From positions 1 through 51,899 of the forward strand of contig JAKSIZ010000011.1 of assembly GCA_024398515.1 (NCBI GenBank): DNA of 51,899 nt, read 5' to 3'. The translations under genes and the position numbers were made by a program. A model generated the notes under the pieces. It worked only from the letters and a program-made list of their open reading frames with translations. It searched no databases and had not been told where the DNA came from. Positions 8,673-48,948 of this stretch are shown here, in pieces; the first letter of the stretch is position 1; the number at the start of each line of letters is the position of its first letter. This stretch comes from Bacteroidaceae bacterium. Its GTDB lineage: Bacteria > Bacteroidota > Bacteroidia > Bacteroidales > Bacteroidaceae.

Positions 8673-8800
8673 GCGTTTTCTGGGACGATGCTTATGCTTT
8701 CAGGAAAACTGCTACAGTTTTCAAGTCAAAACTGCTACGGTTTTCGTATGAAAACTGCTACAGTTTTTTTTCGGGTATTAAGGTCGTGTTGCAGAACGCA
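8673..8800. repeat. Triple-palindrome intergenic element A
   Basis: Three 17-bp palindromes of the word AAAACTGCTACAGTTTT start at 8705, 8728 and 8751 (23-bp period; spacers CAAGTC and CGTATG). The middle copy has CGG for CAG. The right flank TCGGGTATTAAGGTCGTGTT and the left flank GGGACGATGCTTATGCTTTC are roughly inverted copies of each other. It lies between the end of the LolE-like gene and the promoter of the EF-G paralogue. The same word is used by element E. Confidence 0.85.
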
Positions 8801-8843
8801 AGCTTTCGTCTGCGGAATTTATGTGAGATGAAATGCGTGATGC

Positions 8844-10046
8844 TTATTCGTATCTCATCGAACGTGATGGCGAAATATGGCTGATAAGCTGGCTTGGGAT
8901 TATTAGTACAAGAATGCAAATAAGCATTGTGGCAATGTTGAGCAGCAGGATGTAAGGTATATTTATTTCTATTGGCACTGTGTCAACATAATAACTGGAA
9001 GCGTCAAGGTGGATGATGCCTGTGTATTTTTGAATAAGTGCTATGCCAAGTCCGATGATGTTTCCCCATATAAGTCCTTTGCCAATGATGAAAGCTGCAA
9101 ACCAAAGGAATGTATGGCGCACACTACCATTGCGTGAACCGAGAGCTTTTAGCAAGCCTATCATCTGCGTGCGCTCAAGTATGATGATAAGTAAACCTGA
9201 TATCATCGTGATGCCAGAAACGCATATCATTAAGGCAAGTATAATCCATACGTTCACATCGAGAAGTTCAAGCCAGGCAAATATACCTGGTTGTGCTTCT
9301 TGTATGGTGCGGGTGCAGTATTGTTCGCCGTAATGGTCTGTTACGTATTTTAGTCGTGAGTTAATGAGTTGTGCCGTTTCATTAACTGCGTTTTTATCTT
9401 TAACGGCAATCTGTAAACCTGAATACTGCTTTTCTCCCCAACCACTAAGTTTTGTTGCAGTGCGCAAATCGATAAAACACAAGGCATTGTCGTACATCGA
9501 CATGTTTGTAGAGTATATGCTGTCGATAGTGAATCGCCTTGCTTTTACACTTTCGCCAATGAAATACGCAAATACCCTATCCTTGGCGTTAATGTTAAGC
9601 TTGTTGGCAATGGTTTGTGAGATTGTGACCGACGAATTACTGGTGTTTTCTTTTGAATTAGAAGGAATCGTTTCGCCTCTGAAAACTATGCCGAGAAAAT
9701 CAGAGTCGGTTTTCAATATGCCACGAACGTCAGTGTATTCCTTTATTTCCTTAATGTTTGGAACTTCTGAAATGACTTTTATTATGGAATCAGTGACTTC
9801 AATAGGCGTATTGGAACCTGTCTGGTAACTTCTGAAACTTGTGATTTGTATGTCACCACCGATACTGCTGACCTTGTCCTCTATCGTATGCTTGAATCCT
9901 AAAACTACACAAACGGTGAGAATCATGACGACAAGTCCAATAGTTACTCCCGTGATGGCAACACGTATAGCAGGCAGCGAGACTTTTTTCTTCTCGCCGC
10001 CGTCGTTGTTGTAAATTCTCTTCGCTATAAAATAGTTTAGGTTCAT
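8844..10046 (-). CDS. ABC transporter permease of the LolC/LolE (FtsX/MacB) type
   Basis: From the start at 10046 (MNLNYFIAKRIY) the protein is 400 aa. The upstream extension to 10106 overlaps the preceding gene and is unlikely. It has one N-terminal membrane segment (about 24-50), a large periplasmic domain (51-250) and three C-terminal segments within about 260-395. This is the FtsX-fold topology of lipoprotein-releasing LolC/E and MacB permeases. The loop ERTQMIGLLKALGSRNGSVR contacts the ATPase in such proteins. In LolCDE the permease extracts lipoproteins from the inner membrane for transport to the outer membrane. No ATPase gene is adjacent. It is the last gene of a six-gene operon and begins 4 bases after the aminotransferase stop. 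Confidence 0.85.
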   Translation of the reverse strand: MNLNYFIAKRIYNNDGGEKKKVSLPAIRVAITGVTIGLVVMILTVCVVLGFKHTIEDKVSSIGGDIQITSFRSYQTGSNTPIEVTDSIIKVISEVPNIKEIKEYTDVRGILKTDSDFLGIVFRGETIPSNSKENTSNSSVTISQTIANKLNINAKDRVFAYFIGESVKARRFTIDSIYSTNMSMYDNALCFIDLRTATKLSGWGEKQYSGLQIAVKDKNAVNETAQLINSRLKYVTDHYGEQYCTRTIQEAQPGIFAWLELLDVNVWIILALMICVSGITMISGLLIIILERTQMIGLLKALGSRNGSVRHTFLWFAAFIIGKGLIWGNIIGLGIALIQKYTGIIHLDASSYYVDTVPIEINIPYILLLNIATMLICILVLIIPSQLISHISPSRSMRYE

Positions 10047-10050
10047 GCTT

Positions 10051-11250
10051 TTATTCCGTTCTGCCAGGATAAGCCTCAAGGGCTTTTTGAAGAACGAACA
10101 ATGCACGTGTGAGGTCTTCTTTCTTTAGCACGTATGCTATACGAACTTGATTTCGACCGGCACCAGGTGTTGTGTAGAAGCCTGATGCAGGTGCCATCAT
10201 TACTGTTTCGTTCTCATAGTTGAACTCGTTTAAGCACCATGCGCAGAACTTCTCGCTGTCATCCACCGGTAGTTTTGCCACAGTATAGAAGGCACCCATA
10301 GGTATTGGTGAATATACACCAGGAATTCGATTAAGTCCATCAATGAGGCACTTACGTCGCTCAACATATTCGTCGTAAACGTCGCGGGAATAATCTTCTG
10401 GGGCATCAAGCGATGCTTCTGCAGCTATCTGACCTATAAGCGGCGGCGAAAGTCGTGCTTGGCAGAATTTCATCACAGCCTTGCGTACCTCTTTGTTCTT
10501 TGTAATCAATGCTCCAACACGGATGCCGCATTCAGAATATCTTTTTGATACGGAGTCAATGAGTACGACATTATCTTGAATACCTTCAAGATGACAGGCA
10601 CTGATGTATGGGCTACCGGTATATATGAACTCGCGATATACTTCGTCAGAGAACAAATAAAGGTCGTATTTCTTTACAAGATCGCGGATTTGATTCATTT
10701 CGCGGCGAGTATAAAGATAACCTGTCGGGTTGTTCGGATTACATATAAGTATCGCGCGCGTGCGTTCATTTATTAGTTCTTCGAATTTTTCAACCTTTGG
10801 CAAAGAGAATCCTTCGTCAATTGTCGTAGCAATGGTGCGGATGGTTGCTCCTGCAGAAATGGCAAATGCCATATAGTTTGCGTATGCCGGTTCGGGTACG
10901 ATAATCTCGTCACCAGGGTTGAGACAAGAAAGGAATGCAAACAATACCGCCTCGCTACCACCTGATGTGATGATAATATCATCGGCAGTTACGTTGATGT
11001 CGTACTTCTTGTAGTATTCTGTCAGGCGTTCGCGATAATGCTTATAACCTTGTGACGGACTATATTCCAATACTTTCAAGTCAATGTTGCGTATCGCATC
11101 AATGGCAACTTGTGGAGTAGGTAAGTCTGGTTGACCGATGTTGAGGTGATATACTTTAATCCCTCTCTCCTTTGCTGCGTTTGCAAGCGGTGCGAGTTTC
11201 CTGATAGGAGACTCAGGCATTTCTGTTCCGCGAATGGAAATCTTTGGCAT
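10051..11250 (-). CDS. Class I/II pyridoxal-phosphate aminotransferase, AspC-like
   Basis: This 399-aa fold-type I enzyme probably transfers an amino group between aspartate or another amino acid and 2-oxoglutarate. Visible motifs are LNIGQPDLPTP near residue 36, SGGSEAVLFAF (96-106, phosphate contact), CNPNNPTG (170-177), SDEVYREFIY (201-210) with the PLP-stacking Asp/Tyr, the Schiff-base lysine K236 in DSVSKRYSECG, and RNQVRIAYV near 370 with the carboxylate-binding Arg. Substrate range cannot be told from the sequence. It lies between DUF4494 (35 bases upstream) and the LolE-like gene (4 bases downstream), on the minus strand. Confidence 0.9.
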   Translation of the reverse strand: MPKISIRGTEMPESPIRKLAPLANAAKERGIKVYHLNIGQPDLPTPQVAIDAIRNIDLKVLEYSPSQGYKHYRERLTEYYKKYDINVTADDIIITSGGSEAVLFAFLSCLNPGDEIIVPEPAYANYMAFAISAGATIRTIATTIDEGFSLPKVEKFEELINERTRAILICNPNNPTGYLYTRREMNQIRDLVKKYDLYLFSDEVYREFIYTGSPYISACHLEGIQDNVVLIDSVSKRYSECGIRVGALITKNKEVRKAVMKFCQARLSPPLIGQIAAEASLDAPEDYSRDVYDEYVERRKCLIDGLNRIPGVYSPIPMGAFYTVAKLPVDDSEKFCAWCLNEFNYENETVMMAPASGFYTTPGAGRNQVRIAYVLKKEDLTRALFVLQKALEAYPGRTE

Positions 11251-11284
11251 ATATTTTCTCCTTTATTGTTTTCTATTTGAAAAA

Positions 11285-11824
11285 TTAGTCTAAGGGCTCA
11301 AAGCCTTCCTCACCTGAAACAGGTTCCTCTTTTTCTTCTTTTTGTTCTTCTTTCTTTGCGGTGATTTTATCCAAATCATCATACACAACGACGTCGAGGA
11401 AGTTTGTTTCCGTAATAGCGGCAATGACGTAATCTATGAGCGAACCCTTCATTATTTCTTTGGTATTGTCAAAAGCGGCTTGTGTTGATGCACCTTGAAC
11501 AAGATAATTTATGTTTGTGCGCTTTTCCTTTCCAGTCTTTTCGTCAGGAATAATCATTTGGATTTTCACCTTGTACCACTTGTCGGCAGCAGGGTCTTCG
11601 TCAAAGAAAACTTCCTTGAACGATGCAATTTTAAGAGATTCAACGCTTATCGCACCAGAATAGTATGCGCTTGCTTCTTCCAATATCCTTGTCTCTGCCT
11701 CTGTGAAAGTGAAGGCATCCACTACATAATCTTCTTTAACGGGCTTTGTCAGTCCGTCTTCCATTTGTTTCTCACTCTTAATTTTTGCTTCAAACCATGT
11801 TGAACTTTTGCAATTTAATGCCAT
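11285..11824 (-). CDS. DUF4494 family protein
   Basis: From MALNCKSSTWFEAKIK (start at 11824) this is 179 aa. The frame extends to 11872 but that part overlaps the end of yggS, and homologues begin at this motif as I recall. Family signatures are WFEAKIKSEK, YVVDAFTFTEAE and the acidic, Lys/Glu-rich tail (about 155-179). It is a soluble protein without signal peptide. Function is unknown; it is found near yggS-like genes in Bacteroidales, which fits here. A regulatory role in PLP or amino-acid metabolism would be a guess. Confidence 0.8.
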   Translation of the reverse strand: MALNCKSSTWFEAKIKSEKQMEDGLTKPVKEDYVVDAFTFTEAETRILEEASAYYSGAISVESLKIASFKEVFFDEDPAADKWYKVKIQMIIPDEKTGKEKRTNINYLVQGASTQAAFDNTKEIMKGSLIDYVIAAITETNFLDVVVYDDLDKITAKKEEQKEEKEEPVSGEEGFEPLD

Positions 11825-11852
11825 AATCTTTATTCCTTTGTTTATTTCGTTA

Positions 11853-12524
11853 TTAATAATTTCTTTTTCCAAATATGCGAGTGCCTACTCTGACAATTGT
11901 CGAGTTACACTGAGTGGCAATCATGTAATCGTCGCTCATGCCCCAACTACGTTCCTTGAAATATGGTGCATCGGCAAAATACTTTTCTTTTATTTCGTCG
12001 AAGAAGTTCGATGCGATGGTGAATTCTTTCCTTATTTGTTCTTCATCATCGGTAAACGATGCCATCATCATCAATCCACAAATGCGAACATAAGCCAGTT
12101 CCTTCCATTCCCCCATCTCAAGCATTTCCCTGCAAGCGTCAAGCGAAAAGCCATATTTGGTTGCTTCTTCTGCTATATGCAGTTCAAGCAATACATCTAT
12201 GGTGCGCCCACATTTCTCTGCCTGGCGGTTTATTTCCTTCAACAACTTGAATGTATCTACTGCTTCTATCATCGAGATAAACGGGGCAATGTATTTCACC
12301 TTGTTTGTCTGCAGGTGACCTATGAAATGCCAGACAATATCCTTTGGCAGTAAGTCAACCTTCTTGATAAGCTCCTGCTCATGACTTTCGCCAAAGATTC
12401 TATGTCCGCATTCGTATGCTTCCTTTATGTCCTCAGCGGGATGATACTTGCTGACGGCAACAAGTCTCACTTCTTTTGGAAGTGATTGCAATACTTCTGA
12501 TATGTTTTGCCCTATTTCGCTCAT
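11853..12524 (-). CDS. YggS/PLPBP family PLP-binding protein
   Basis: This 223-aa single-domain PLP-barrel protein is of the family that keeps free pyridoxal phosphate and amino/keto-acid pools in balance rather than catalysing a known reaction. The Schiff-base lysine is K26 in LVAVSKYHPAEDI. Other motifs are FGESHEQEL, WHFIGHLQTNKVK (about 65-77), GLMMMASF near 149 and the phosphate-binding WGMSDDY (about 194-200). It begins 3 bases after the stop of the protease gene and is followed by DUF4494 with a 28-base gap, so co-transcription is likely. The window also encodes a pyridoxamine kinase at 28790. Confidence 0.9.
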   Translation of the reverse strand: MSEIGQNISEVLQSLPKEVRLVAVSKYHPAEDIKEAYECGHRIFGESHEQELIKKVDLLPKDIVWHFIGHLQTNKVKYIAPFISMIEAVDTFKLLKEINRQAEKCGRTIDVLLELHIAEEATKYGFSLDACREMLEMGEWKELAYVRICGLMMMASFTDDEEQIRKEFTIASNFFDEIKEKYFADAPYFKERSWGMSDDYMIATQCNSTIVRVGTRIFGKRNY

Positions 12525-12527
12525 CGT

Positions 12528-14420
12528 TCAGTTACCCAGTATTATACTTGCTGTGCTTGTAATGTCGGCAACGTCAATACTTTCATCTTGATTAGCATCT
12601 GCTGCTTCAAGGTTGAAAGGTTCTGGTTCTTCGCCCAAGATATATGCTGCAATGGCGGTAATATCTGCCACGTCAACCGTTTTGTCGTCATTGGCATCGC
12701 CGAGAATCAACGCTGGAACAACATTCCCGAAGTCGAATGTTATCGTTGCGAAATCATCGCCTGCAACTATTTCTTCCTTGATATTTGTTATCGGCTTGCC
12801 TGTATAGCCTACCTTCGTAGAGTAGTAATACTTGTTGTCCATCACGTTTCGATACACGTCTTTCACTTCCCTGAGTACTTCAGTCACCTGATTTTTCCCT
12901 GGATATGGATCGCTGTAATGGCTGCTTGCATAGACGGAGGAATCGAAGGTTGTCTTTTTCGTTCCATTATAGATAGGTTGTCCTACCTGATACGATATGT
13001 GAACGAAGCTATCGGCTGGTACAAGTGTCATTGCTGTATTGCTCAAATAGATAGTTGCACCCGATTCATTCTTCTTTTTGTAATTATTGTTTGGTACCAT
13101 TGAGTGCCCATCGTATGTAATGTCATAGACAAGCATCCCATGCCCAAGTACAGACGAGTTGCAACCTTTATTCTGAACATTCTCAACAATGTAATAATGC
13201 TTGCCGCCCTCTTCTCCTTCTGGGTAGATGCGGTAAGCTTTTCCTCCCTCTTCAGAGAGTGGCTTGAGGGTTACAGTTTGCGAATCTGTCAGGTTTTCTA
13301 TGTCCATCCATCCCATACACTCTCTTTCCCAAGCCGAATAAGCATTAGGATAAAGACCATTCTTGGTGTATTCCCCACCATCCATAAGGTCCCAATACTC
13401 GTATGTCTGGTTCAGCATCTGTGCTGGTGTTGTGGTGGAATACAGGTCTGGCAAACCGAGAGTATGTGAAAATTCGTGGCAGAACAGCCCAATGCCAGAC
13501 ACGTGTGGAGTACGGAAAGAAGTAGGTTTCCTTAAAAGTTCACAACTAATCCCGACTCTTGAAGTCTTTACTCCTTGCCCAGTGTCGTATGTTGCGGTTG
13601 TTACCTTTGGCCACATCAAGTCTGTAAGATCTGAATTTTGGCTCTGGCTATAGCTTGCACAAATAAAATATGTAAGGTCAATATAGCCGTTACCATCCAA
13701 ATCATATTCCTTAAAGTCAACGCTGTCGGCAATTAACGGCATGGCATCTCTCACAAGATACGACACATTGTCGCTGCCACTACCGTAGTATTTGAGCTTC
13801 TGCGGAAGCTTGACTGGACCTACAAGGTCGAATTGTGGACGGTATTGACCGAAGCTCATCTCATTGAAATACTCTGCAACGCTGCAATAGTTGTCCTTGA
13901 GTGTACCGTCGGCAAGTTCCGGATTGAGTGTCTTTCCATTTAGATATGAGTCGAATATCTCCTTCGTGTTATCCCAATAGAAAGTTGAATCCTGGAACTC
14001 AACGAGCACGACAAGTGCTTTTGGTGTACCTACATGAGGGAAATAATTGGCTGGAACAGGTTCGCTCTTCTTCCTTTTTGTTACTGCCGACTCGAAATGT
14101 TGAGCAAACTTGTCTATGTCCTGCAAGTCAACGAGACCTTGTTCCCACGCTGTTCGTTGGCTTTTTTCGTGTGCCAAAACTCCAGTTGAAATCAGTTCGC
14201 CTTTGTCTGTTGTCTGTGCAACAAAGAAATTTCCACCTTCACAAACGAGCAAAGCGCCGTCGATTGTGGTAACAAAATTGCCATATTCATCACCATGAGC
14301 AACTACAGTAATCATTGTTCCATCACTTTGCCTCACTGTTTGTGGCTGTGGATCTGCCTTTCCGGCAAAGGTCGTCAATGCCGTGGCGAGGCAGATTAGC
14401 GTAAATATTATCTTTTTCAT
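12528..14420 (-). CDS. Secreted M6-family metalloprotease with dockerin-like tail
   Basis: The 630-aa protein starts with a signal peptide (MKKIIFTLICLATALTTFAG). The zinc motif is HEFSHTLGLPD at 315-325 (HExxHxxGxxD, with H315, E316, H319 and D325), typical of M6/immune-inhibitor-A-like peptidases. YDLDGNGYIDLTYF (about 239-252) is the conserved Asp-rich segment upstream of it. YEYWDLMDGGEY provides the Met-turn region. The C-terminus carries two dockerin-like segments (GDANDDKTVDVADIT and ADANQDESIDVADIT) and ends ASIILGN. It should be exported and cleave extracellular protein. Its start overlaps the stop of the flavodoxin/ferredoxin gene by 4 bases and yggS follows after 3 bases. A secreted protease thus lies within an otherwise cytoplasmic operon. 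Confidence 0.9.
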   Translation of the reverse strand: MKKIIFTLICLATALTTFAGKADPQPQTVRQSDGTMITVVAHGDEYGNFVTTIDGALLVCEGGNFFVAQTTDKGELISTGVLAHEKSQRTAWEQGLVDLQDIDKFAQHFESAVTKRKKSEPVPANYFPHVGTPKALVVLVEFQDSTFYWDNTKEIFDSYLNGKTLNPELADGTLKDNYCSVAEYFNEMSFGQYRPQFDLVGPVKLPQKLKYYGSGSDNVSYLVRDAMPLIADSVDFKEYDLDGNGYIDLTYFICASYSQSQNSDLTDLMWPKVTTATYDTGQGVKTSRVGISCELLRKPTSFRTPHVSGIGLFCHEFSHTLGLPDLYSTTTPAQMLNQTYEYWDLMDGGEYTKNGLYPNAYSAWERECMGWMDIENLTDSQTVTLKPLSEEGGKAYRIYPEGEEGGKHYYIVENVQNKGCNSSVLGHGMLVYDITYDGHSMVPNNNYKKKNESGATIYLSNTAMTLVPADSFVHISYQVGQPIYNGTKKTTFDSSVYASSHYSDPYPGKNQVTEVLREVKDVYRNVMDNKYYYSTKVGYTGKPITNIKEEIVAGDDFATITFDFGNVVPALILGDANDDKTVDVADITAIAAYILGEEPEPFNLEAADANQDESIDVADITSTASIILGN

Positions 14421-15205
14421 TCTTCTATTTTGAGCGGACAGACGTACTGCCCCTTCTTTTTTGTTGTTCTATGGTTTATTGCATGTTGCGGACAATGATG
14501 GTAACAAGCCATGCAGTTCGTACATGTGCCGTCCTTTTTCCACGAAGGAAGTTTGCCTTTTCCTCCATTTATATTCTTTACCGGACACGTTTCAACACAC
14601 TTGCCACACCTGATGCATCTCTCCTCGTCAACCTTGAAAGGCTTGTCGGAGATAAACAGTTTGTTGAACGGTATGCCAAGAACGTAGGTGAGGATATAAG
14701 GCACAGGGCCTTTTGTCAACTGTTCTATTCCTTTTCTTCGGTGTATTATGTACTCCGAAATTATCTCTACGTCGCGTTTTGCCTGCGACAGTTTCCATCT
14801 TTTCTTATTCTCATCGTCAACGTTGAAGCCTGGCAGACATACGTAACTCTCGGGCATAATGAGCGAAAATGCCGAGTCGAGATGCAGTCCTGCAGCGTTA
14901 AGGTCCTTTCTCATGACGCTCATCGCTTCGCCGATATTGTCGCCTGCTGTCATTACACAATAGATGTAACAGTGCTCAGCATTGTGTATGTTCAGGTGTT
15001 TTATGAACTGTCTTACGATTTTAGGAGGCATCCAACCGTTCACAGGGAACACAAAACCTACGACATTGTCGTTGCCTCGTTCTGCAATTTGACTGCCACC
15101 GACGGTCATAGCATCGGCAATACTTGCCAATTTATCGTTGGTTGCATTGGCAATATATTCCGCTGCCCATCGTGAATTACCCGTTCCCGAAAAGTAATAT
15201 ATCAT
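14417..15205 (-). CDS. EFR1-type flavodoxin and 2[4Fe-4S] ferredoxin protein
   Basis: This 262-aa protein joins an N-terminal flavodoxin-like domain (YYFSGTGNSRWAAEYI at 3-18, the FMN phosphate loop) to a C-terminal bacterial ferredoxin domain. The two clusters are bound by C197, C200, C203, C207 (CIRCGKCVETCP) and C228, C231, C234, C238 (CTNCMACYHHCP). Such proteins carry electrons in anaerobes; the partner enzyme is not evident. It is the first gene of a six-gene minus-strand operon with its promoter at 15229-15260, and it overlaps the protease gene by 4 bases. Confidence 0.9.
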   Translation of the reverse strand: MIYYFSGTGNSRWAAEYIANATNDKLASIADAMTVGGSQIAERGNDNVVGFVFPVNGWMPPKIVRQFIKHLNIHNAEHCYIYCVMTAGDNIGEAMSVMRKDLNAAGLHLDSAFSLIMPESYVCLPGFNVDDENKKRWKLSQAKRDVEIISEYIIHRRKGIEQLTKGPVPYILTYVLGIPFNKLFISDKPFKVDEERCIRCGKCVETCPVKNINGGKGKLPSWKKDGTCTNCMACYHHCPQHAINHRTTKKKGQYVCPLKIEE

Positions 15206-15228
15206 ACCTTAATTTCAAACTTTGGGCA

Positions 15229-15260
15229 CAAAGTTACAAAAAGTTTACGGCATACCGAAA
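15229..15260 (-). promoter_or_regulatory. Promoter of the EFR1-to-LolE operon
   Basis: TAACTTTG on the minus strand (15229-15236) with TTTC (15257-15260) 20 bp upstream, a 3-of-4 match to TTTG. Start of transcription near 15222 leaves a leader of about 17 bases. Confidence 0.55.
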
Positions 15261-15301
15261 GGTTACGGGATTAAATATTATAATTTTTTATTTTTTTAAT
15301 T

Positions 15302-16894: not shown

Positions 16895-16899
16895 GAGTG

Positions 16900-16931
16900 C
16901 AAAGTTACGAATAATAATGCAAATAAACAAG
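16900..16931 (-). promoter_or_regulatory. Promoter of the FAD oxidoreductase, probably leaderless
   Basis: TAACTTTG (16900-16907) with CTTG (16928-16931) 20 bp upstream on the minus strand. Since the ATG is at 16894, transcription would start at or within a few bases of the start codon. Confidence 0.55.
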
Positions 16932-17063
16932 CGATACGGCAATATGTTTTTTGCGACACAGGTGAAAATATCCCGTTGTGTGAAGTGATTGCCCTTTCAG
17001 GGCGTTCATTTCAACCGAATACTTTGCCTGTGCTCGTTTCCCGACTTGTGCGGATGGGTTGGG

Positions 17064-17184
17064 AAAGTTGAACGCTTAACTCGGAAAAACATTGCTGCAA
17101 TGTTGACTCCAACATTGCTCCAATGTTCGGACCAACATTGCTGCAATGTTTGGCGGAGTATAAAGGTCGTTCCGTGAAACGCTA
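17064..17184. repeat. Triple-palindrome intergenic element B
   Basis: Three 17-bp palindromes of the word AACATTGCTGCAATGTT start at 17088, 17111 and 17134 (23-bp period; spacers GACTCC and CGGACC). The middle copy has CTCC. Right flank TGGCGGAGTATAAAGGTCGT matches those of elements A and E; the left flank AACGCTTAACTCGGAAA is its rough inverse. It lies in the 400-base space between the divergent FAD oxidoreductase and thrA genes; the remainder of that space (16932-17063) shows no other feature. Confidence 0.85.
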
Positions 17185-17236
17185 ACGCTCGCATGAACAA
17201 AAAATAAGCGTGAAATGAAAAAAATAATAGCTTTTA

Positions 17237-29658: not shown

Positions 29659-29718
29659 CATTGTCGCATGGTTTTCAACGCTCCGTTTTGCAGCATTCGA
29701 CGCTACCCCTTTTTGCAT

Positions 29719-29826
29719 CGAGCATTAAACCCTTTTGCACATTCTTAGAATGTTCACGTGAACATTCTAAGAATGTAACGCGGAACATTCTAAGAATGTT
29801 CCAAAGGCATAAGCGTACGCCTTCAG
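29719..29826. repeat. Triple-palindrome intergenic element C
   Basis: Three 17-bp units of the word AACATTCTAAGAATGTT start at 29738, 29761 and 29784 (23-bp period; spacers CACGTG and ACGCGG). The first has CACATTCTTAG, the second ends TGTA. Flanks are GCATTAAACCCTTTT on the left and CCAAAGGCATAAGCGTACGCC on the right, again rough inverses. It lies between the pyridoxamine kinase gene and argG; 29827-29890 shows nothing further. Confidence 0.85.
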
Positions 29827-29891
29827 AACCGCTACCCATCAACCCCTCGCAAAACAAGCGTCGAATACCGCCAATCTACCGTTGTAAGTTG

Positions 29892-37668: not shown

Positions 37669-37712
37669 AGCATCTGTTTGCGTCACGTCTTCATATTATT
37701 TTCATGACTCGA

Positions 37713-37835
37713 CGCATACCCTCTACAGTATGCTCTGTTGAGGGTGGAAAAAAGTTGTACAACTTTCGCGCGAAAGTTGTACGACTTTCAGTTGAAAGTT
37801 GTACAACTTTTTTCCGAGTTAAACGCTCGTCCTTC
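37713..37835. repeat. Triple-palindrome intergenic element D
   Basis: Three 16-bp perfect or near-perfect palindromes of AAAGTTGTACAACTTT start at 37751, 37773 and 37795 (22-bp period; spacers CGCGCG and CAGTTG); the second has TACGACTTT. The left side contains a hairpin (ACCCTC...ACAG...CTGT...GAGGGT, 37718-37745). The right flank is TTTCCGAGTTAAACGCTCGTCC. The same word and left hairpin occur in element F. It follows argH. Confidence 0.85.
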
Positions 37836-37843
37836 GCAATACA

Positions 37844-37890
37844 CTATGAGGTTTAGGGAAAATCCTATGTTTGTTTAGGGAAAAGCTATG
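37844..37890 (+). promoter_or_regulatory. 21-bp direct repeats upstream of a promoter
   Basis: CTATG starts at 37844, 37865 and 37886, exactly 21 bp apart. The first two are each followed by GTTTAGGGAAAA. Two helical turns of spacing just upstream of a -7 element suggests side-by-side binding of an activator on one face of the DNA. Confidence 0.5.
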
Positions 37891-41661: not shown

Positions 41662-41708
41662 ATTCTGTAATTCTTTTATGTAAATTCTGCTTTTGAAACT
41701 CTATTGCA

Positions 41709-41716
41709 CAAAGATA
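41709..41716 (-). promoter_or_regulatory. -7 element before the tricorn-like gene
   Basis: TATCTTTG on the minus strand, about 48 bases before the ATG. No TTTG is found at the right spacing, so only half of the promoter is supported. Confidence 0.4.
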
Positions 41717-41834
41717 CTTAAACTTTGCGAAACACACGGGAAAAGCATCGTTTTTTTTTATTTATTTAAGTAAATCCCTCGCTTCAGCCTTTCCCTTGGC
41801 AGCGTTTGAGCGGTTGGCTTTCGGGGCATGAACG

Positions 41835-41965
41835 TTATGCTTTCCAAGGACGACCTTTATAGTTGAACGAAAACTGCTACAGTTTTCACCATGAAACTGC
41901 TACAGTTTTGACTTGAAAACTGCTACAGTTTTTTTCCGAGTATTAGGCTCGTCCCATGAAACGAT
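41835..41965. repeat. Triple-palindrome intergenic element E
   Basis: Three 17-bp units of AAAACTGCTACAGTTTT start at 41870, 41893 and 41916 (23-bp period; spacers CACCAT and GACTTG); the second begins with G. Left flank GGACGACCTTTATAGTTGAACG and right flank CCGAGTATTAGGCTCGTCC are clear inverses. Same word as element A, 33 kb away. It lies between the tricorn-like gene and the terminator of the Sel1 gene; 41717-41834 shows nothing else. Confidence 0.87.
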
Positions 41966-41980
41966 TACGTTGATATACGA

Positions 41981-42030
41981 CAAAAGACTCGAACATTCGG
42001 GATTTCGAAAACGTTCGAGTCTTTTGTTTT
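41981..42030 (-). terminator. Hairpin terminator after the Sel1-repeat gene
   Basis: CAAAAGACTCGAAC (41981-41994) pairs perfectly with GTTCGAGTCTTTTG (42013-42026). It lies 22 bases after the stop codon of the Sel1 gene. The T-rich end of the stem serves as tail on either strand. Confidence 0.65.
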
Positions 42031-42051
42031 AAGTCATCCTAAAGCGTTGGA

Positions 42052-42537: not shown

Positions 42538-42616
42538 ATCTGTCGTTTTTGTCTGTTACACTTATTATAACGAATCAGACAGGCAGAAGTTTCACGCGTT
42601 TTACAATCTTTAACCG

Positions 42617-44728
42617 CTATCGTTCTACTTTAACTTTCTTTTGCGAATAGTAATAACGGCGGTGAGCTTCCTCTTGTCGTGCCTGTGAGAAATTGCTTAT
42701 TCGCTTCAGGTAACCGATTATTCGCGTCATGTAATCAACGTCCTCACTGCCACAGACAGGGCACTTCTTGAGGTTGTGTTTGTCTATATGTCCGCACTTG
42801 TTGCAGATGGTGTTCGGTATGTTGAACGTGAAATAGTTGCATCCTTCGATTGCTGCAACCTTCAGCAAGTGCTTGTATTGCTCCTTTGAAAGGTGCTCTT
42901 CGAGGTTCATGTGCAGTGCACTGCCGCCTGTAAGGTGCTCAATATAAGGGCGACCATGAAGCTTGAACTTGTCGATAATGTTTAGACTGTCGTCCTCAAC
43001 AACGTAGAAATAGCTGTTGTAACAGTCGCGTGGAACGAAGTATCCGTCTTCTTTGTCCCACTTTGCATGCTTGACGCCGACGTTTTCAGCAGGTATCATC
43101 TCGCAGTTGAACATTAGTTCTTTTGTGCGATAAAGCTTGTTGTACTTCTCCACTTCGCCCAAAATGGTCTGCACATACTCGCGATATTCCTTGTTGTCAG
43201 AGATTTCCATGCCGAGGAATTCAGCGCTCTCGACCAATCCATTCACTCCGATTGTGAGGTATTGGCGGTTGATATTGATGTAACCAGCGTCGAAGAGTGG
43301 CAACATTCCGTGCTCTTGCAGTTCCTTAAGGTTCTCGTTGTAGGCTATCTGAACCTTGTGGCAGAGGTCGATAACGTCATCTAAGAAGGCAATGTAATCC
43401 ATCTCATGCTTCACGGCATACTGTATGCAGCGGTTCAGATTGATTGTCAGCACGCTCTTTGAACCGGTGGAAACGCCTCCGGCACCGAGCGTGTAGCTGA
43501 ATCCATTGTCTGTAATCTCGTTGCGCAAACGGCAGCAACTCGACAGGGAATCGGCGTTGTCGCTCATGTAAGTGAAGAAACTGTGACCTTCAGCATACAT
43601 CTCGGCGGTGAAATCACCCCACTCTTGGTCGCGGCATTCGCCATTTTCTGTCAACAATGCCATTGTTTCTACTGGGAATGTAAGCACGGTCTTGGTGCGT
43701 TCTTTGTTGAACCATTTCATGAATCTCTTTTGCAACCACGAGAGAGACGCCCAGTCAGGACGACTTCCATCAGGGAAGAAGAACTCGCCAAACAGACTTT
43801 CAAAGTAATACTTATCGTAGTAGGCGATGTTCCAGAACACTGCCTGATAGTTTCTTGCGCCTGTAGGTTGGTTAAGAGTATAGACGATTTGCTCAAAGCA
43901 ATCGGTGATAATCTTGTCGATAGTGCGTTGTTTTGCGCTGAGGTCAACCACCTTTTCTGGTTCTTTCCAGTAGTCTTCGCCGTATTCTTTGCCTATGAAA
44001 TAGTTTAGATACATGAGAAACTCTGGCGTTGCACAGGCTCCTGACAGCATCGAACTGACCATAAATACCATATTAACAAAGCCACCGCAGAAGGATTTAA
44101 GGTTTGTCGGAGCGGTTGAGTTGCCTCCAATCGACGCAGTTCCGCTGAGGAGCCACGGGTACATAGTGATGCTCGCGCAATAGTTTGCCAGCGAAGTTTC
44201 GTCGTTCTTATATATATAATGTGTCTTCAGCAGTTGGATATATTTGTCGGCAAGCTCTTTTCCATAGAGTTTCTTGATGCGATCGGTCAGCAATCGGCGG
44301 TTCAAACGGATGAAACTTGCCTTTGGAAGTTCGCCAATCAGCGTGGCGATGTTCTTGTGTTCAACGTTGGCGTTAGCATCGTATTTGCTACCTGTTGCGG
44401 CATTTGCTGCCTGACAGTAGTCAACCAAAAAGTTCAACTTCTCCATCGTCTCACGATCTTCGGTGTGTTTCTGTCGGTAGAGCATGAACGACTTAGCCAC
44501 CTTGTAGTATCCCTCTTTCATAAGAGCCACCTCAACTTGGTTTTGAATGTCCTCAACCTTAATGTTGTTGTGGATGTCGAGATGCGTAAGGATTTTGCTA
44601 ATTTTCTCAAGGTCAACAGGTTCGTTAACTGATTGGAATGCTTTGATGATGGCATTCATAATTTTATCCAACGAGAAGCGCACGTTCTGACCATCGCGCT
44701 TCATGATGCTGAAGGGCACGTTTTCCAT
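42617..44728 (-). CDS. nrdD: Anaerobic ribonucleoside-triphosphate reductase, class III
   Basis: This 703-aa glycyl-radical enzyme makes deoxynucleotides without oxygen, a mark of an anaerobe. An ATP-cone allosteric domain (about 4-92, starting FSIMKRDGQNVRFSLDKI) precedes the ten-stranded barrel. The C-terminal zinc site is C642, C645, C656, C659 and the glycyl radical is Gly672 in TRIIGYL. The enzyme needs the radical-SAM activase NrdG; no nrdG lies next to it, in contrast to the usual arrangement. It has its own promoter and a leader of about 120 bases with a perfect 12-bp inverted repeat. Confidence 0.95.
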   Translation of the reverse strand: MENVPFSIMKRDGQNVRFSLDKIMNAIIKAFQSVNEPVDLEKISKILTHLDIHNNIKVEDIQNQVEVALMKEGYYKVAKSFMLYRQKHTEDRETMEKLNFLVDYCQAANAATGSKYDANANVEHKNIATLIGELPKASFIRLNRRLLTDRIKKLYGKELADKYIQLLKTHYIYKNDETSLANYCASITMYPWLLSGTASIGGNSTAPTNLKSFCGGFVNMVFMVSSMLSGACATPEFLMYLNYFIGKEYGEDYWKEPEKVVDLSAKQRTIDKIITDCFEQIVYTLNQPTGARNYQAVFWNIAYYDKYYFESLFGEFFFPDGSRPDWASLSWLQKRFMKWFNKERTKTVLTFPVETMALLTENGECRDQEWGDFTAEMYAEGHSFFTYMSDNADSLSSCCRLRNEITDNGFSYTLGAGGVSTGSKSVLTINLNRCIQYAVKHEMDYIAFLDDVIDLCHKVQIAYNENLKELQEHGMLPLFDAGYININRQYLTIGVNGLVESAEFLGMEISDNKEYREYVQTILGEVEKYNKLYRTKELMFNCEMIPAENVGVKHAKWDKEDGYFVPRDCYNSYFYVVEDDSLNIIDKFKLHGRPYIEHLTGGSALHMNLEEHLSKEQYKHLLKVAAIEGCNYFTFNIPNTICNKCGHIDKHNLKKCPVCGSEDVDYMTRIIGYLKRISNFSQARQEEAHRRYYYSQKKVKVER

Positions 44729-44792
44729 CTTGTTATTTAATTGGTTTTAGCGAATTTAAGTATATTTTATGTTTTAATTTATAGCTCTTTTT

Positions 44793-44830
44793 GGAAAACT
44801 TTTTAGTTTTTCCGAATGAAAAAGTTTTCC
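44793..44830 (-). promoter_or_regulatory. Perfect 12-bp inverted repeat in the nrdD leader
   Basis: GGAAAACTTTTT (44793-44804) and AAAAAGTTTTCC (44819-44830) flank 14 bases, about 65-100 bases before the nrdD start and within the predicted leader RNA. There is no T-tract after the stem in the nrdD sense. It does not resemble the NrdR box as I remember it (ACACwATATAGTGT). It could be an operator or a regulatory hairpin. Confidence 0.5.
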
Positions 44831-44853
44831 ATTTTGTCAAACTTTCTCGTGTG

Positions 44854-44884
44854 CAAAGTTACAATAATTTTTCATTTTCGCAAA
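44854..44884 (-). promoter_or_regulatory. Promoter of nrdD
   Basis: On the minus strand TTTG (44881-44884) and TAACTTTG (44854-44861) are 19 bp apart. Divergent from the rluA-type gene promoter at 44977. Confidence 0.65.
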
Positions 44885-44976
44885 GCAAAAAGGCAAAATT
44901 TTTCAACATTTTTTTCAATAAATTTGTGAGCGATTACGGCAAAGAAAAGCAAAAAACATGGAAATCATTGTTTTTC

Positions 44977-45008
44977 TTTGGAAAGTTGAATGCTTTTGAT
45001 TAACTTTG
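44977..45008 (+). promoter_or_regulatory. Promoter of the pseudouridine synthase gene
   Basis: TTTG (44977-44980) and TAACTTTG (45001-45008) are 20 bp apart, full consensus. Because it lies over the TTG start of the longer ORF (44990), it supports the ATG at 45035 as the true start. Confidence 0.7.
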
Positions 45009-45034
45009 TGGCGAATTTGAAAAACGTAGCAACT

Positions 45035-45910
45035 ATGTATAACAGAAAAGCAGATGAGATTTACACAGTGCAGCACGATGCGCCACTGCTGGAATATCTC
45101 CTTGAAAACGTAAAGAACACAAGGAATAAAATAAAGGCAACTTTGAAGAACCGTGGCATAAAGGTAAACGGAAAAGTTGTGACGCAATTCGATTTCCCTT
45201 TGCGTAAAGGGATGAAGATTGCCGTTTCACAGGACAAGCACAACGACACTTTCAAGAGCAGATACGTAAAGATTGTGTATGAGGACAAGTGTATTGTTGT
45301 GGTTGAGAAAGCCATTGGAATACTTTCTATGGCTGCTGGACATAGTTCGCTTAACGTTAAGTCTGTGCTCGACGATTACTTCAAGAAGACTCGACAGACG
45401 TGTAGGGCACACGTCGTGCATCGTCTTGACCGCGATACTTCGGGCTTGATGGTCTATGCAAAGGACATTGAAACGGAGCAAATACTTGAACATGAATGGC
45501 ACGACATAGTGTGTGACCGCCGATATGTTGCCGTTGTTTCGGGTGAGATGGAGGATGATTTCGGTACTGTTGAGAACTGGCTCAAGGACAACAAAGCCTA
45601 TATAACTTACTCTTCGCCTACTGACAATGGTGGGAAATATGCTGTCACTCACTATCAGACTCTTGCCAGGACAACCGACCATTCGCTTGTTGAGTTCCGC
45701 CTTGAGACTGGTCGCAAGAACCAGATTCGCGTTCATTGCCAGGACTTGGGGCATCCTGTCTGTGGTGATGTCAAGTATGGTGATGGCAATGATCCGCTTC
45801 ATCGGCTTTGCCTACACGCATACAAACTTTGTTTCTACCACCCATACACCAATGAACGTATGGAGTTTGAAACGCCAATCCCAACAAACTTCCGCCAACT
45901 GTTCAAGTAA
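45035..45910 (+). CDS. RluA-family 23S/tRNA pseudouridine synthase
   Basis: From MYNRKADEIYTVQ the protein is 291 aa. An S4 RNA-binding domain (about 15-75, with LKNRGIKVNGKVVTQ) precedes the catalytic domain. The catalytic Asp lies in the signature HRLDRDTSGLMVYAKD (about 128-143). RKNQIRVHCQDLGHPVCGDVKYG near 222-244 is also typical. It isomerises uridine to pseudouridine in ribosomal RNA or tRNA; the exact site cannot be told. A small membrane protein gene follows 47 bases later. Confidence 0.92.
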   Translation: MYNRKADEIYTVQHDAPLLEYLLENVKNTRNKIKATLKNRGIKVNGKVVTQFDFPLRKGMKIAVSQDKHNDTFKSRYVKIVYEDKCIVVVEKAIGILSMAAGHSSLNVKSVLDDYFKKTRQTCRAHVVHRLDRDTSGLMVYAKDIETEQILEHEWHDIVCDRRYVAVVSGEMEDDFGTVENWLKDNKAYITYSSPTDNGGKYAVTHYQTLARTTDHSLVEFRLETGRKNQIRVHCQDLGHPVCGDVKYGDGNDPLHRLCLHAYKLCFYHPYTNERMEFETPIPTNFRQLFK

Positions 45911-45957
45911 TCTTTTTGGCAAAGTTAAATCTATTCCTTAATATTATAATGTAAGTC

Positions 45958-46149
45958 ATGGATATTAGTCAAATAATTATCAGCGTTATCATCTTTCTCG
46001 CTGCACTTTATTATATAAAAAAAATGGCAGGATGCCTTGTAAAGATTCTCCTTACCATCGCAGTTCTTGCTGCACTCGTGTGGTTATACTTTACAATGCA
46101 CCCTGCTTCGTGGGATGCTGTGTTGGCTTCTGTTTTGCCGTCAGTGTAA
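45958..46149 (+). CDS. Small membrane protein, unknown function
   Basis: This 63-aa protein has two hydrophobic stretches: about 5-21 (IIISVIIFLAALYYIKK) and 26-47 (CLVKILLTIAVLAALVWLYF). I recognise no family. It is probably co-transcribed with the pseudouridine synthase gene. The gene is convergent with the LUD gene, whose stop is at 46187; the 37-base gap has a small CGGAT/ATCCG hairpin without T-tract. Confidence 0.6.
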   Translation: MDISQIIISVIIFLAALYYIKKMAGCLVKILLTIAVLAALVWLYFTMHPASWDAVLASVLPSV

Positions 46150-46186
46150 AACTGGCGGATGAATCCGTCGGAACAATGACTGATTT

Positions 46187-46822
46187 TTAGTATCCGAGGG
46201 ACTCATCTACAAGCACAACGGCATGGCGATGCTCCGGAAAAGAGTTGCGCATTATCTCTATATAGTTGCAGATGCAAGTCGGTGTGTTGCAGTTGTGGCA
46301 CGCTCCGTCAATCTTGCATGGGTTTAAGTTGTTGAAGCGTTGATTGTTTATCGGGGCAGCAGTGTTGCGTGCACGGAGCATTGCTTCGTCTATATTTTTC
46401 ACAACCTTATTCATTCCGACAACGAAAATGACCTTTTCCGGTCCGTAGGTTATCGCTGCAACTCGGTTTCCACGACCGTCAATGTTGACAATAAGTCCAT
46501 CTTCTGTGATTGCGTTCACGCTTGAAAGGAAGTAGTCGGCAGACAATGCCTGATGATACATGTCCTTTATTTCCTCTGGCGATGTCGCAAGGTCGCGGTC
46601 GATAACACGATAGTTTCCTTCGTGCAGGGCCTTAGTTATGCCAAGATCACGCACTGTCATGCTTCCTCCCCATGATATGCTGCTACCTTCAGGGATGAGT
46701 TCAAGCACCTTTGCCTTTGCCTCGTCGGCTGTTTTGCAATAGAATGCGTCATAGTGTCGGCGCGTAAGTTCCTTCACTAACTTCGCCCCAAGCTTCTCGT
46801 TTCTTTCTTTAATTACGTCCAT
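46187..46822 (-). CDS. LUD-domain (LutC/YkgG-like) protein
   Basis: This 211-aa protein has the LUD fold: SSISWGGSMTVRDLG near 48-62, YHQALSADYFLSSVNAITEDG near 89-109, and VIFVVGMNKVVKNIDEA near 130-146. A C-terminal cysteine-rich part (CKIDGACHNCNTPTCIC, about 169-185) could bind a metal or Fe-S cluster. Relatives act in lactate oxidation (LutC) or are uncharacterised; lutA and lutB are not adjacent here, so a lactate role is not supported by context. It follows htpG's terminator on the other side and reads on the minus strand. Confidence 0.85.
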   Translation of the reverse strand: MDVIKERNEKLGAKLVKELTRRHYDAFYCKTADEAKAKVLELIPEGSSISWGGSMTVRDLGITKALHEGNYRVIDRDLATSPEEIKDMYHQALSADYFLSSVNAITEDGLIVNIDGRGNRVAAITYGPEKVIFVVGMNKVVKNIDEAMLRARNTAAPINNQRFNNLNPCKIDGACHNCNTPTCICNYIEIMRNSFPEHRHAVVLVDESLGY

Positions 46823-46830
46823 AGTCTCTT

Positions 46831-46859
46831 AAAAAAGCCTGCCGTACACTCGACAGGCA
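46831..46859 (-). terminator. Rho-independent terminator of htpG
   Basis: In minus-strand sense GCCTGTCG pairs with CGGCAGGC, followed by six T (46831-46836). It lies 14 bases after the htpG stop and just before the LUD gene. Confidence 0.82.
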
Positions 46860-46872
46860 CATAAAAAATCTC

Positions 46873-48732
46873 TTATTTCAATATCTCGAATGAGCGTTTG
46901 AGGAACTCGTTTAGAGCGGCACCTTTTAGGAGACCGTTCTGAAGAAGTGCCAAATCTATGAGCTGTGCTATCTGCTTTTCATCGGTTTGAGAGGTGAGCG
47001 ACTTGATTACTTCGTTGTCAGAGTTCAATACGATTGAGTACATGTCAGGCATCTCGCCATAGAAATTCATGCCACTCTGGAAGCGACTCATGTCTTTCAT
47101 GCGGCGCATGTATTCGCTCTGAGTCATGATGATAGGCTGTACACCTTCGCCCATCGGCTGCAACTCTACGTTGAATTCTATCTTGTCGAGCTTTGGCAGG
47201 GCGTCTTTGAATGCCTTGACTATCGGCTCATCCTCTTTCTTTTCGTCCTTCTTGTCGTCTTTCTTCTCTTCCTTTTCCTTTTGGATCAGGCGTGAAAGTA
47301 TGTCGGCATCAACGCGATTGAAGCGCGATTTCTCCATTTTGCGCTCAAGAAGCGACACAAGTGCCACGTCAAGATCACCGTCCATGATGAGCACACTATA
47401 CCCTTTTGCCTTTGCTGCCTCTATGTAAGAGTACTGTTCATCCTTGTTTGTGGCGTAGAGATAAACGAGATTGCCATCTACATCGGTCTGTTCCGTGGTG
47501 ATGAGTGTCTTATATTCTTCGTAAGTAAAATACTTTCCTTCCGAATCCTTGAACAGTGCATAGTCCTTCGCCTTCTCGTAGAAGTCCTCTTGTGAAAGCA
47601 TTCCGTAGTCGATGAAGAGCTTAAGACTATCCCATTTCTCCTCGAAATCCTTGCGGTTTTCCTTGAATATTGAGTTCAGACGGTCCGAAACTTTCTTCGT
47701 GATATACGTTGAAATCTTCTTCACGTTGGCGTCGCTTTGCAGATATGAACGGCTTACGTTGAGCGGAATGTCGGGTGAATCTACCACACCATGCAGCAAT
47801 GAGAGGAAGTCAGGCATGATTCCCTCTACCTGATCGGTAACAAAAACATTGTTGCAATAGAGCTGAACCTTGTTGCGTTGCAGGTCAATGTTGCTGTTTA
47901 CGCGTGGGAAATAGAGGATACCCGTGAGGTTGAATGGGAAGTCAACATTGAGATGAATCCAGAAGAGAGGCTCATCGCTCATTGGATACAAGTAGCGATA
48001 GAACTCCTTATAATCCTCATCCTTCAGCTGCGAAGGCGTTTTTGTCCACAGTGCCTCCTTTGCATTTATCACGTTGTCTTCGTCTGTCTCAACGCTCTTG
48101 CCGTCTTTCCATTCCGTTTTCTTGCCACATGCTACCGGCACAGGAAGGAATTTGCAGTATTTGCCGAGCAGTTGGAGTATCGTGCCCTTCTGCAGGAATT
48201 CCTTGCAATCATCGTCGATGTAGAGCACGATGTCCGTTCCGCGAGAGTCGCGTGAGGCTTCTTCTATTTCAAATTCAGGACTTCCGTCGCACGACCACTT
48301 CACTGCCTTTGCTCCGTCCTTGTAGCTGAGTGTGATGATTTCAACCTTCTTGCTTACCATGAAAGCCGAATAGAATCCGAGGCCGAAGTGTCCGATTATT
48401 CCGTTTGCAGTGTCTTTGTACTTGTCGAGGAAGTCGTTTGCGCCCGAGAATGCTATTTGGTTTATGTACTTGTCAATCTCTTCTTCGGTCATGCCGATGC
48501 CTGAGTCTGAGATGGCCAGCGTGCCTTTCTTCTCGTCGATTGCGACGTGGATGGTCAGGTCGCCCAGTTCGCCCTTCACCTCACCATTGTTTGCGAGGGT
48601 TTTGAGTTTCTGTGTTGCATCGACTGCGTTCGACACCATTTCACGAAGGAAGATTTCGTGGTCTGAATAGAGAAACTTTTTTATTACGGGGAAGATGTTC
48701 TCTGTCGTAACCCCAATGTTACCTTTTGCCAT
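46873..48732 (-). CDS. htpG: Hsp90 chaperone HtpG
   Basis: From MAKGNIGVTTENIFPVIKKF (ATG at 48732) the protein is 619 aa, normal for HtpG; the extension to 48921 runs through element F and is not real. The ATPase N-domain has the Hsp90 signatures LREMVSNAVDATQKL, DSGIGMTEEEI and IGHFGLGFYSAFMV. The middle domain carries NVSRSYLQSD near 320. A charged insertion (EKEEKKDDKKDEKKE) lies around 505-520. It folds client proteins in the cytoplasm with ATP. No clear promoter consensus was found upstream; it may use another sigma factor. Confidence 0.95.
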   Translation of the reverse strand: MAKGNIGVTTENIFPVIKKFLYSDHEIFLREMVSNAVDATQKLKTLANNGEVKGELGDLTIHVAIDEKKGTLAISDSGIGMTEEEIDKYINQIAFSGANDFLDKYKDTANGIIGHFGLGFYSAFMVSKKVEIITLSYKDGAKAVKWSCDGSPEFEIEEASRDSRGTDIVLYIDDDCKEFLQKGTILQLLGKYCKFLPVPVACGKKTEWKDGKSVETDEDNVINAKEALWTKTPSQLKDEDYKEFYRYLYPMSDEPLFWIHLNVDFPFNLTGILYFPRVNSNIDLQRNKVQLYCNNVFVTDQVEGIMPDFLSLLHGVVDSPDIPLNVSRSYLQSDANVKKISTYITKKVSDRLNSIFKENRKDFEEKWDSLKLFIDYGMLSQEDFYEKAKDYALFKDSEGKYFTYEEYKTLITTEQTDVDGNLVYLYATNKDEQYSYIEAAKAKGYSVLIMDGDLDVALVSLLERKMEKSRFNRVDADILSRLIQKEKEEKKDDKKDEKKEDEPIVKAFKDALPKLDKIEFNVELQPMGEGVQPIIMTQSEYMRRMKDMSRFQSGMNFYGEMPDMYSIVLNSDNEVIKSLTSQTDEKQIAQLIDLALLQNGLLKGAALNEFLKRSFEILK

Positions 48733-48828
48733 AGTATTTATATTTATTCTGTCAATGTTGTATGGATAATCTTTACCTCTCGAAGCAACAAACTGTGTGC
48801 CAAAAGCGCATGTGTTTCTTAGGTTCTT

Positions 48829-48948
48829 CGGTACCCCTCTACAGGGTGTTCTGTTGGGGGTAAAAAAAGTTGTACAACTTTCGCGCGAAAGTTGTACAAC
48901 TTTCAACTGAAAGTTGTACAACTTTTTTTCGACTCAAGCGTTCGTCCC
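48829..48948. repeat. Triple-palindrome intergenic element F
   Basis: Three perfect 16-bp palindromes AAAGTTGTACAACTTT start at 48868, 48890 and 48912 (22-bp period; spacers CGCGCG and CAACTG). The left side has a hairpin like that of element D but with different paired bases (ACCCC...ACAG...CTGT..GGGGGT). The right flank is TCGACTCAAGCGTTCGTCCC. It lies between the end of maf and the start of htpG. Confidence 0.87.

Follow-up and report, generated by a model that had tools for sequence, protein, structure and literature searches.

Evenly spaced triple-palindrome elements in the genome of a Bacteroidaceae bacterium, putative nucleation sites for DNA-binding proteins

The stretch analysed here, which we call the window, comprises 51,899 nucleotides (positions 1 to 51,899 of contig JAKSIZ010000011.1, C3 in our numbering) of a Bacteroidaceae bacterium whose 2.65-Mb draft genome (GenBank assembly GCA_024398515.1) consists of 90 contigs and is 88% complete. 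An earlier note, made from the letters of the window alone, had described six intergenic elements in it, each built of three palindromes, and all six were present: a strict triplet scan listed five of them and slightly looser scans listed all six, and the strict scan returned 0 triplets from three first-order Markov copies of the window. The positions given for the first five elements were right; the sixth was found at 48866-48925 and not at 48868-48927. In each element three near-palindromes of 16-17 bp stand side by side, and every spacer between them is exactly 6 bp, as had been described. The cores are as follows:

8705..8767, no strand: element 1 core, three copies of word W1 (AAAACTGCTACAGTTTT), the middle unit with one change; spacers CAAGTC and CGTATG
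17088..17150, no strand: element 2 core, three copies of word W2 (AACATTGNNNCAATGTT); spacers GACTCC and CGGACC
29738..29800, no strand: element 3 core, three copies of word W3 (AACATTCTNAGAATGTT), the outermost bases variable; spacers CACGTG and ACGCGG
37751..37810, no strand: element 4 core, three copies of word W4 (AAAGTTGTACAACTTT), the middle unit with one change; spacers CGCGCG and CAGTTG
41870..41932, no strand: element 5 core, W1; spacers CACCAT and GACTTG
48866..48925, no strand: element 6 core, W4; spacers CGCGCG and CAACTG

Written as arms and centres, the words are AAAACTG-NNN-CAGTTTT (W1), AACATTG-NNN-CAATGTT (W2), AACATTC-TNA-GAATGTT (W3) and the W4 sequence given above. The constancy of the word within an element applied mainly to the arms; centres and single bases varied (GCTGC or GCTCC centres in element 2, a CACATT start to the first unit of element 3, and CGGTTTT in one unit of element 1). 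Element 6 overlaps a TTG-started open reading frame (ORF) at that frame's far upstream end only; the true start of this ORF is uncertain.

These six elements belong to one genome-wide family with a nearly fixed design and four words, and the family is far larger than was first described: we counted 108 triples in a sample of 1,163,749 bp, which extrapolates to ~246 triples per genome. A flank pattern matched 75 times over the draft genome, compared with 4 matches for the reversed control pattern, and a covariance model built from 21 elements gave at least 150 matches (150 scored among 991 candidates) with E-values of 5e-30 to 1e-17, many of them being one element counted on both strands. The first set of sampled DNA (823,381 bp including the window) held 74 three-unit and 10 two-unit arrays (0 and 2, respectively, in one Markov copy), with a period of 23 bp in 122 gaps and 22 bp in 26 and no array of more than three units; a later, independent set (340,368 bp) added 34 arrays, all of them triples with the same four words and 6-bp spacers. 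Over all the own-genome DNA sampled, complete elements had three units in 125 of 128 cases, two units in two (C1:108542-108581 and L019 on C4) and one unit in one; a third apparent pair was a triple split by the boundary of a sampled stretch and was counted as no exception. In the first 823 kb, 174 of 176 exact word units lay in triples, the other two lying in a two-unit element and in an element cut near a contig end. Allowing 3 mismatches of 48, W4 occurred at 51 places in the genome and its reversed control at 0, and the 50 places listed had 0 (16), 1 (31) or 2 (3) mismatches. The earlier note had allowed for coincidental hairpins, with no further copies or with a period and number that vary freely; in this genome the opposite was found.

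The arms of the palindromes hardly varied within a class. Over 74 elements, departures from the class consensus affected 2.1% of arm cells in W1, 0 of 1260 cells in W2, 1.9% in W3 and 1.8% in W4, compared with 36%, 29%, 9% and 16% of spacer cells, respectively; the first flank block departed in 26-33% of cells and the outer blocks in 41-54%. In the later set, 1 of 378 W2 arm cells was changed. Letters that stay nearly invariant amid drifting spacers and flanks look selected. The note had offered two explanations for the match between the three units, and the figures (arms 0-2% from consensus, spacers 9-36%) favour selection for matching units; they make copying within the element unlikely as the main cause, since tandem copying of whole units would have carried the spacers along. 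The further statement that both arms change together was right between word classes and failed within them, where we counted 37 one-sided and 0 two-sided changes in the 74 elements. Changes that are one-sided and never two-sided indicate that what is kept is the letters of the half-site, not base-pairing.

Outside the cores, the flanks of all classes, when read outward, repeat a motif at 22-bp steps (GAgTtaAaCG.TCgtc, AAag.caAaCG.tCga, gaAA..aaaac). Information per 22-bp block, measured over 146 flanks, was 14.6, 8.5, 4.9, 1.8 and 0.8 bits, the lattice fading over about four blocks (~90 bp) with no sharp end, and the flank autocorrelation was highest at lag 22 among lags 5-49. Flank types are interchangeable between words. 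The right flank that the note had quoted was exact only at 41936-41954 in the window, and the other elements share the looser 22-bp periodic motif. Since there is no sharp end, the extents below were chosen as the core plus 66 bp per side:

8639..8833, no strand: element 1 with its flank lattice, a fading 22-bp lattice
17022..17216, no strand: element 2 with its flank lattice
29672..29866, no strand: element 3 with its flank lattice
37685..37876, no strand: element 4 with its flank lattice, the left flank of the alternative type (CACCCTCAACAGAGCATACTGTAGAGGG read outward)
41804..41998, no strand: element 5 with its flank lattice, the right flank with the exact CCGAGTATTAGGCTCGTCC at 41936-41954
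48800..48991, no strand: element 6 with its flank lattice, the left flank of the alternative type (ACCCCCAACAGA... read outward)

As a side observation, W3 and W4 elements often have the alternative flank (CACCCCCAACAGA...TACTGTAGAGGGG), with a hairpin of its own, on one side only (37713-37750 and 48828-48865 in the window).

The left and right halves of an element are kept different. In 73 elements, the two sides of one element were less alike in the first flank block than sides taken from different elements of the same class (0.491 vs 0.563), the next three blocks showed no such same-element versus different-element difference, and complementarity between the two spacers of one element was avoided (0.304 vs 0.487 permuted). 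Such unlike halves argue against terminal inverted repeats (TIRs) and against selection for one long hairpin. Long perfect palindromes are unstable, and the asymmetry may reflect avoidance of one. W2 elements have a polarity, with one TG side and one TT side in 25 of 30. A comparison of this polarity with local GC skew, made post hoc and uncorrected, gave a Fisher P of 0.027 for 33 polar elements in the 1.16-Mb sample (0.087 for the first 25 and 0.49 for the next 8); we treat the tendency of polarity to follow the skew as a lead only, a hint of a link with replication direction.

Triples are also over-dispersed along the contigs. The 92 gaps between them had a minimum of 4,120 bp, a median of 9.3 kb and a 5-95% range of 5.5-15.9 kb, and none was shorter than 4 kb, compared with a Poisson expectation of ~28.5. 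For the 66 gaps of the first set, 5,000 random placements into predicted intergenic slots gave 14.9 gaps below 4 kb on average and never fewer than 5, compared with 0 observed. In the second set, 25 gaps had a mean of 8.7 kb and a minimum of 5.0 kb; the low coefficient of variation (CV) of this set is biased, because short contigs hide long gaps. Spacing was independent of the word: in the first set, neighbours of unlike class were at least 4.1 kb apart and those of the same class at least 5.8 kb, and neighbouring elements shared a word about as often as chance would have it (16 of 66; 18.5 on average after shuffling). A prophage without sites lies in the largest gap (48.8 kb, C56), and the next largest (~28 kb on C12) contains ordinary TonB-receptor and glycosidase genes. 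The prophage lies in the element-free stretch C56:4700-53400 and was recognised by matches to tape measure, tail, head maturation protease and DnaG-like primase proteins. With genes called by a codon-usage script written for this analysis, 2 of the 69 elements that have a predicted gene on each side overlapped a predicted gene. Among intergenic slots of 150 bp or more in the own genome, those holding an element and those lacking one did not differ significantly in how many were convergent (12/67 vs 8/85, P=0.15) or divergent (14/67 vs 23/85, P=0.45).

A number of irregular copies were seen in the course of these counts. The single-unit element, a W1 copy with both flanks present (L004:1523, at about 10,924 on C26), lies ~430 bp from the W3 triple at C26:11355, and one- and two-unit elements may show the route by which units are gained or lost. 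Two W1 elements are cut near contig starts (L010 on C12 and L005 on C27); at both, a hairpin sequence (GAGGATGTGCC..GACACACCCTC) that is possibly the end of an insertion sequence (IS) abuts GACTTG-AAAACTGTAGCAGTTTT, and the element looks like an insertion target. L011 (C17, about 5,303-5,457) and L051 (C31, about 2,214-2,342) have a similar extra ~44 bp between flank and core (TCATCGACGCTTGCGTCG...AAGCGCAGCGACTAAAA), which is itself a hairpin. Of the 50 W4 copies listed, 10 or more are found no farther than ~700 bp from the end of a contig, above expectation for 90 contigs, and their CACCCCCAACAG-type flank may be part of a longer repeat. Two pairs of a further palindrome, near TTCGAGATCTCGAA, were seen at C1:107065 and C1:125474, each with a period of 24 bp.

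Searches in other genomes found palindrome arrays of similar period built of other words. The own-family model R1 had no match in 59 relatives (35 of the same genus and 24 of the same order) under stricter filters. Exact W1 and W2 doublets were absent from the GTDB r220 species contigs scanned, in which the own genome, or one very close to it, may have no record, and exact doublets of W1, W2 and one W4 variant (with one AATG arm) were absent from IMG/VR, where W3 and canonical W4 were not scanned. In genomes of the same genus, a word-agnostic scan did show palindromes of other words arrayed with a 21-23-bp period, clearly so in G026 and G028. In G028 (244 kb), 13 of the 14 arrays listed had a 21-22-bp period, mainly with AAAATAGSCTATTTT and ACAAAGTTAWTAACTTTGT, and the Markov control gave 0. 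On contig 1 of G026 (555 kb), all periods were 21-23 in 41 of 47 arrays of at least three units, and self-similar windows numbered 2595 at lag 22, 482 at lag 23 and 0 at lags 18-20, 25, 26, 30 and 33; a 22-bp core stands between 23-bp flank arrays clearly at two G026 sites and less so at a third. Taking only arrays of periods 21-23 and merging neighbours gave 38 G026 sites, none of which overlapped a predicted gene and which were over-dispersed (minimum gap P=0.0006, CV P=0.0008). The non-random, spaced distribution expected of chromosome-architecture sites is found for the triples and again in a second species. In 14 further same-genus genomes (19-40 kb sampled from each), nine had at least one array of constant 21-22-bp period, and of the 15 arrays listed 10 had periods of 21-22 bp, three had 18 bp and two were irregular; several of these arrays were weak (up to 1.8 arm mismatches per unit), the count covers coding and intergenic DNA alike, and the Markov control gave 1 array in three copies of 563 kb. 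Five genomes of other genera had no array in 20 kb each, a sample too small to claim genus restriction.

Two single cases in the relatives are recorded here for themselves. An array lies upstream of an orthologous gene (71% identity) in both G010 (C1 about 69526, L125:9526) and the own genome (C23:102606) with different words, possibly by chance. At G026 C1:216453-216709 (L154:16453-16709), a 12-unit AAAAGGTCAACCCTTT array stands between copies of a sequence similar to the hairpin of the cut W1 elements (GAGGATGTGTC..GACACACCCTC), and it resembles a BrickBuilt-style repeat (compared below) inside a bounded element.

We propose, and would give it an even chance of being right, that the elements are putative nucleation sites for sequence-specific DNA-binding proteins that tile the chromosome in the manner of the lambda triple operators. 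Each of the three identical palindromes would be bound by one protein dimer, so that three dimers sit next to each other 22-23 bp (~two helical turns) apart, and binding would spread from them, by a few further steps of 22 bp, into the degenerate flank on either side. The ~250 sites, mostly 5-16 kb apart whatever the word, would divide or bridge the chromosome (as loops, domains or marks); the four words would imply four related binding specificities in this species, and in its congeners the same lattice would carry different words. What we infer are the proteins, the way they oligomerise and their action at the scale of the chromosome: half-sites under constraint, spacers that drift, a two-turn repeat distance, a flank lattice of that period that fades, and even spacing irrespective of the word together point to sequence-specific dimers bound three abreast and nucleating outward. 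Among the roles listed in the earlier note, an array for a DNA-binding protein fits best, and the mobile, REP/RAYT (repetitive extragenic palindrome and its associated tyrosine transposase) and RNA roles each failed tests described below. A wider proposal, which we put forward tentatively and think more apt to be wrong than right, is that bacteria giving the impression of being Prevotella-like have chromosomes tiled at 5-15-kb intervals by arrays of operators for several dimers, the geometry (palindromes 21-23 bp apart with a fading 22-bp lattice) being conserved and the words replaced between species.

Several results weigh against nucleation sites of this kind. S24-type (CI/LexA-like) proteins numbered two in the own genome, neither of them linked to the words, and 0 in G026 and G010; the RAYT and S24 searches gave no candidate protein. 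The intrinsic curvature of the elements was not unusual in a wedge model, so sequence-encoded bending by itself would not be what they serve for. The single-unit W1 element lies ~430 bp from a W3 triple, so the spacing rule covers triples and not every remnant, and even spacing could also arise from insertion immunity. Self-similarity in own contigs C34 and C1 numbered 0 at lag 22, 63 at 23, 87 at 21 and 107 at 33; this measure misses the own family because its spacers and flanks drift. In G026, unit number ranged from 2 to 13 per merged site, and sites preferred convergent slots (17/38 vs 24/117 empty slots) and avoided divergent ones (2/38 vs 32/117), which suggests promoter avoidance or a 3'-end role in that genome. 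A G026 array was present at 1 of 14 element-facing gene sides compared with a background of 9 of 126, so site positions are not shared with G026; the relatives compared are too distant to show empty sites.

An explanation that we consider unlikely is that these are old non-autonomous elements of the miniature inverted-repeat transposable element (MITE) or REP type, spread by a transposase with target immunity (hence at least 4 kb apart), the core being kept for recognition. Such elements would be dispersed and almost strictly intergenic with inverted flanks, as the copies here are, and it would agree with this origin that positions differ between species and that none of the scans made found the words elsewhere; BrickBuilt in Porphyromonas is a known MITE containing 23-nt units in tandem (PMC4596501). 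However, no target duplication was enriched in a scan of the 74 elements for direct repeats of 3-10 bp whose two copies lay at offsets of 15-149 from the core, where the top count (13/74, at 3 bp and offsets 39/38) lay inside the conserved flank and longer repeats reached at most 6/74. No flank pair was more than 59% identical over 88 bp, which suggests that the sample holds no recent copies. Flank information that fades without a sharp end, first-block sides that are less alike within an element (the 0.491 vs 0.563 above, the reverse of TIRs), W2 arms unchanged in 1260 cells while flanks drift, and a spacing that holds across unlike words all speak against mobility as well. The earlier note had suggested a check for an associated Y1/RAYT-type gene, and no intact RAYT was found in the own draft genome. 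A REP/RAYT element was rejected as a candidate, the only Y1 match in this 88% complete draft being a 133-aa frame with a stop (C18:22396-22599); no RAYT (Y1) match was found in array-bearing G003, G026 and G027, and intact frames occur in some other genomes. Recombination sites, at which a recombinase acting on the palindromes would shuffle spacers and flanks within and between elements, seem highly improbable. The mosaic combinations of spacer order, spacer orientation and asymmetric centres (CTA/TAG), the interchange of flank types between words and the few one- and two-unit elements are all consistent with such shuffling, but other array lengths would then be expected often, and only 3 of 128 complete elements were not three-unit, none of them longer; nor was any recombinase linked to the sites.

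That the elements mark the cell's own DNA for transformation, recombination or protection, as DNA uptake sequences do, is in our view quite unlikely. Even spacing and species-specific words are what such labels would show, the sites were absent from the one prophage examined, and the viral contigs scanned held no exact doublet of W1, W2 or the one W4 variant; a triplet with a 22-bp flank lattice, however, is not predicted by self-marking, and uptake words of the known kind are single, short and much denser along the DNA. An RNA-level element, with hairpins serving as bidirectional terminators or transcript stabilisers, we regard as very unlikely. Six folded stretches (four elements, two of them on both strands) beat their shuffles with z-scores of -4.5 to -8.2, and the convergent bias in G026 could fit a 3'-end role there. 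Against it, there were 0 compensated and 37 one-sided arm changes in the 74 elements, the left and right halves avoid complementarity (the spacer values above), a one-sided T-tract agreed with the gene strand in 8 tandem cases and opposed it in 15, and the own genome had no significant convergent enrichment. Within the window Rfam gave no match; in six loci it matched a cobalamin riboswitch and a tRNA, both away from the elements, and nothing else.

If the elements are indeed sites for DNA-binding proteins, they would mark out chromosome domains across a large group of gut bacteria and open domain size and boundaries to direct testing. Should the wider proposal hold, they would represent a previously unseen chromosome-organising or self-marking system in which proteins and sites co-evolve as private dialects. 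Should the elements prove selfish, they would offer an unusual record of insertion immunity in nature, and either way the words are a species-specific signature for assigning metagenome fragments. We know of no bacterial intergenic repeat class in which a near-fixed triplet and near-invariant arms go together with even spacing and species-specific words, and in the open-access PMC literature we found no description of such triple-palindrome elements. On present evidence the system is new in kind; dispersed intergenic palindromes as such are an old category, and the binding protein is putative.

The closest parallels in geometry are the lambda OL and OR regions, each with three 17-bp operators about 23 bp apart centre to centre. 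For lambda CI, PMC5880393 reports that three-operator sets secure a 2.3-kb loop better than two-operator sets and that bound dimers promote binding on adjacent DNA. The elements resemble these operators in having three adjacent near-palindromic sites of ~17 bp, ~23 bp apart, and differ in their ~250 sites over the chromosome, near-identical arms and four words; with S24-type proteins few or absent in the array-bearing genomes, they are no member of the lambda family. parS, matS and Noc-binding sites are short palindromes bound by spreading or bridging proteins and are confined to one macrodomain or far fewer in number, whereas the triplets, in several words, recur throughout the chromosome sampled here. 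The DNA uptake dialects of Neisseriaceae and Pasteurellaceae are species-specific single short words at far higher density, and even spacing has been reported for the Haemophilus uptake signal sequence (USS); here a composite element of roughly 190 bp occurs every 10 kb. REP sequences and bacterial interspersed mosaic elements (BIMEs) comprise hundreds of short intergenic palindromes in mosaic arrangement, and in contrast to those with RAYT the elements here have a near-fixed triplet and even spacing, with no intact RAYT found in the own draft. Porphyromonas gingivalis also belongs to the Bacteroidales, and its BrickBuilt is the nearest named element to those described here. As set out in PMC4596501, BrickBuilt is an intergenic MITE with a 23-nt tandem unit and IS-like TIRs, present in 19 copies in which 1 to 22.8 direct repeats follow one another without spacers; the elements of the present genome, in contrast, lack sharp ends and almost always have three palindromes, separated by 6 bp of variable sequence.

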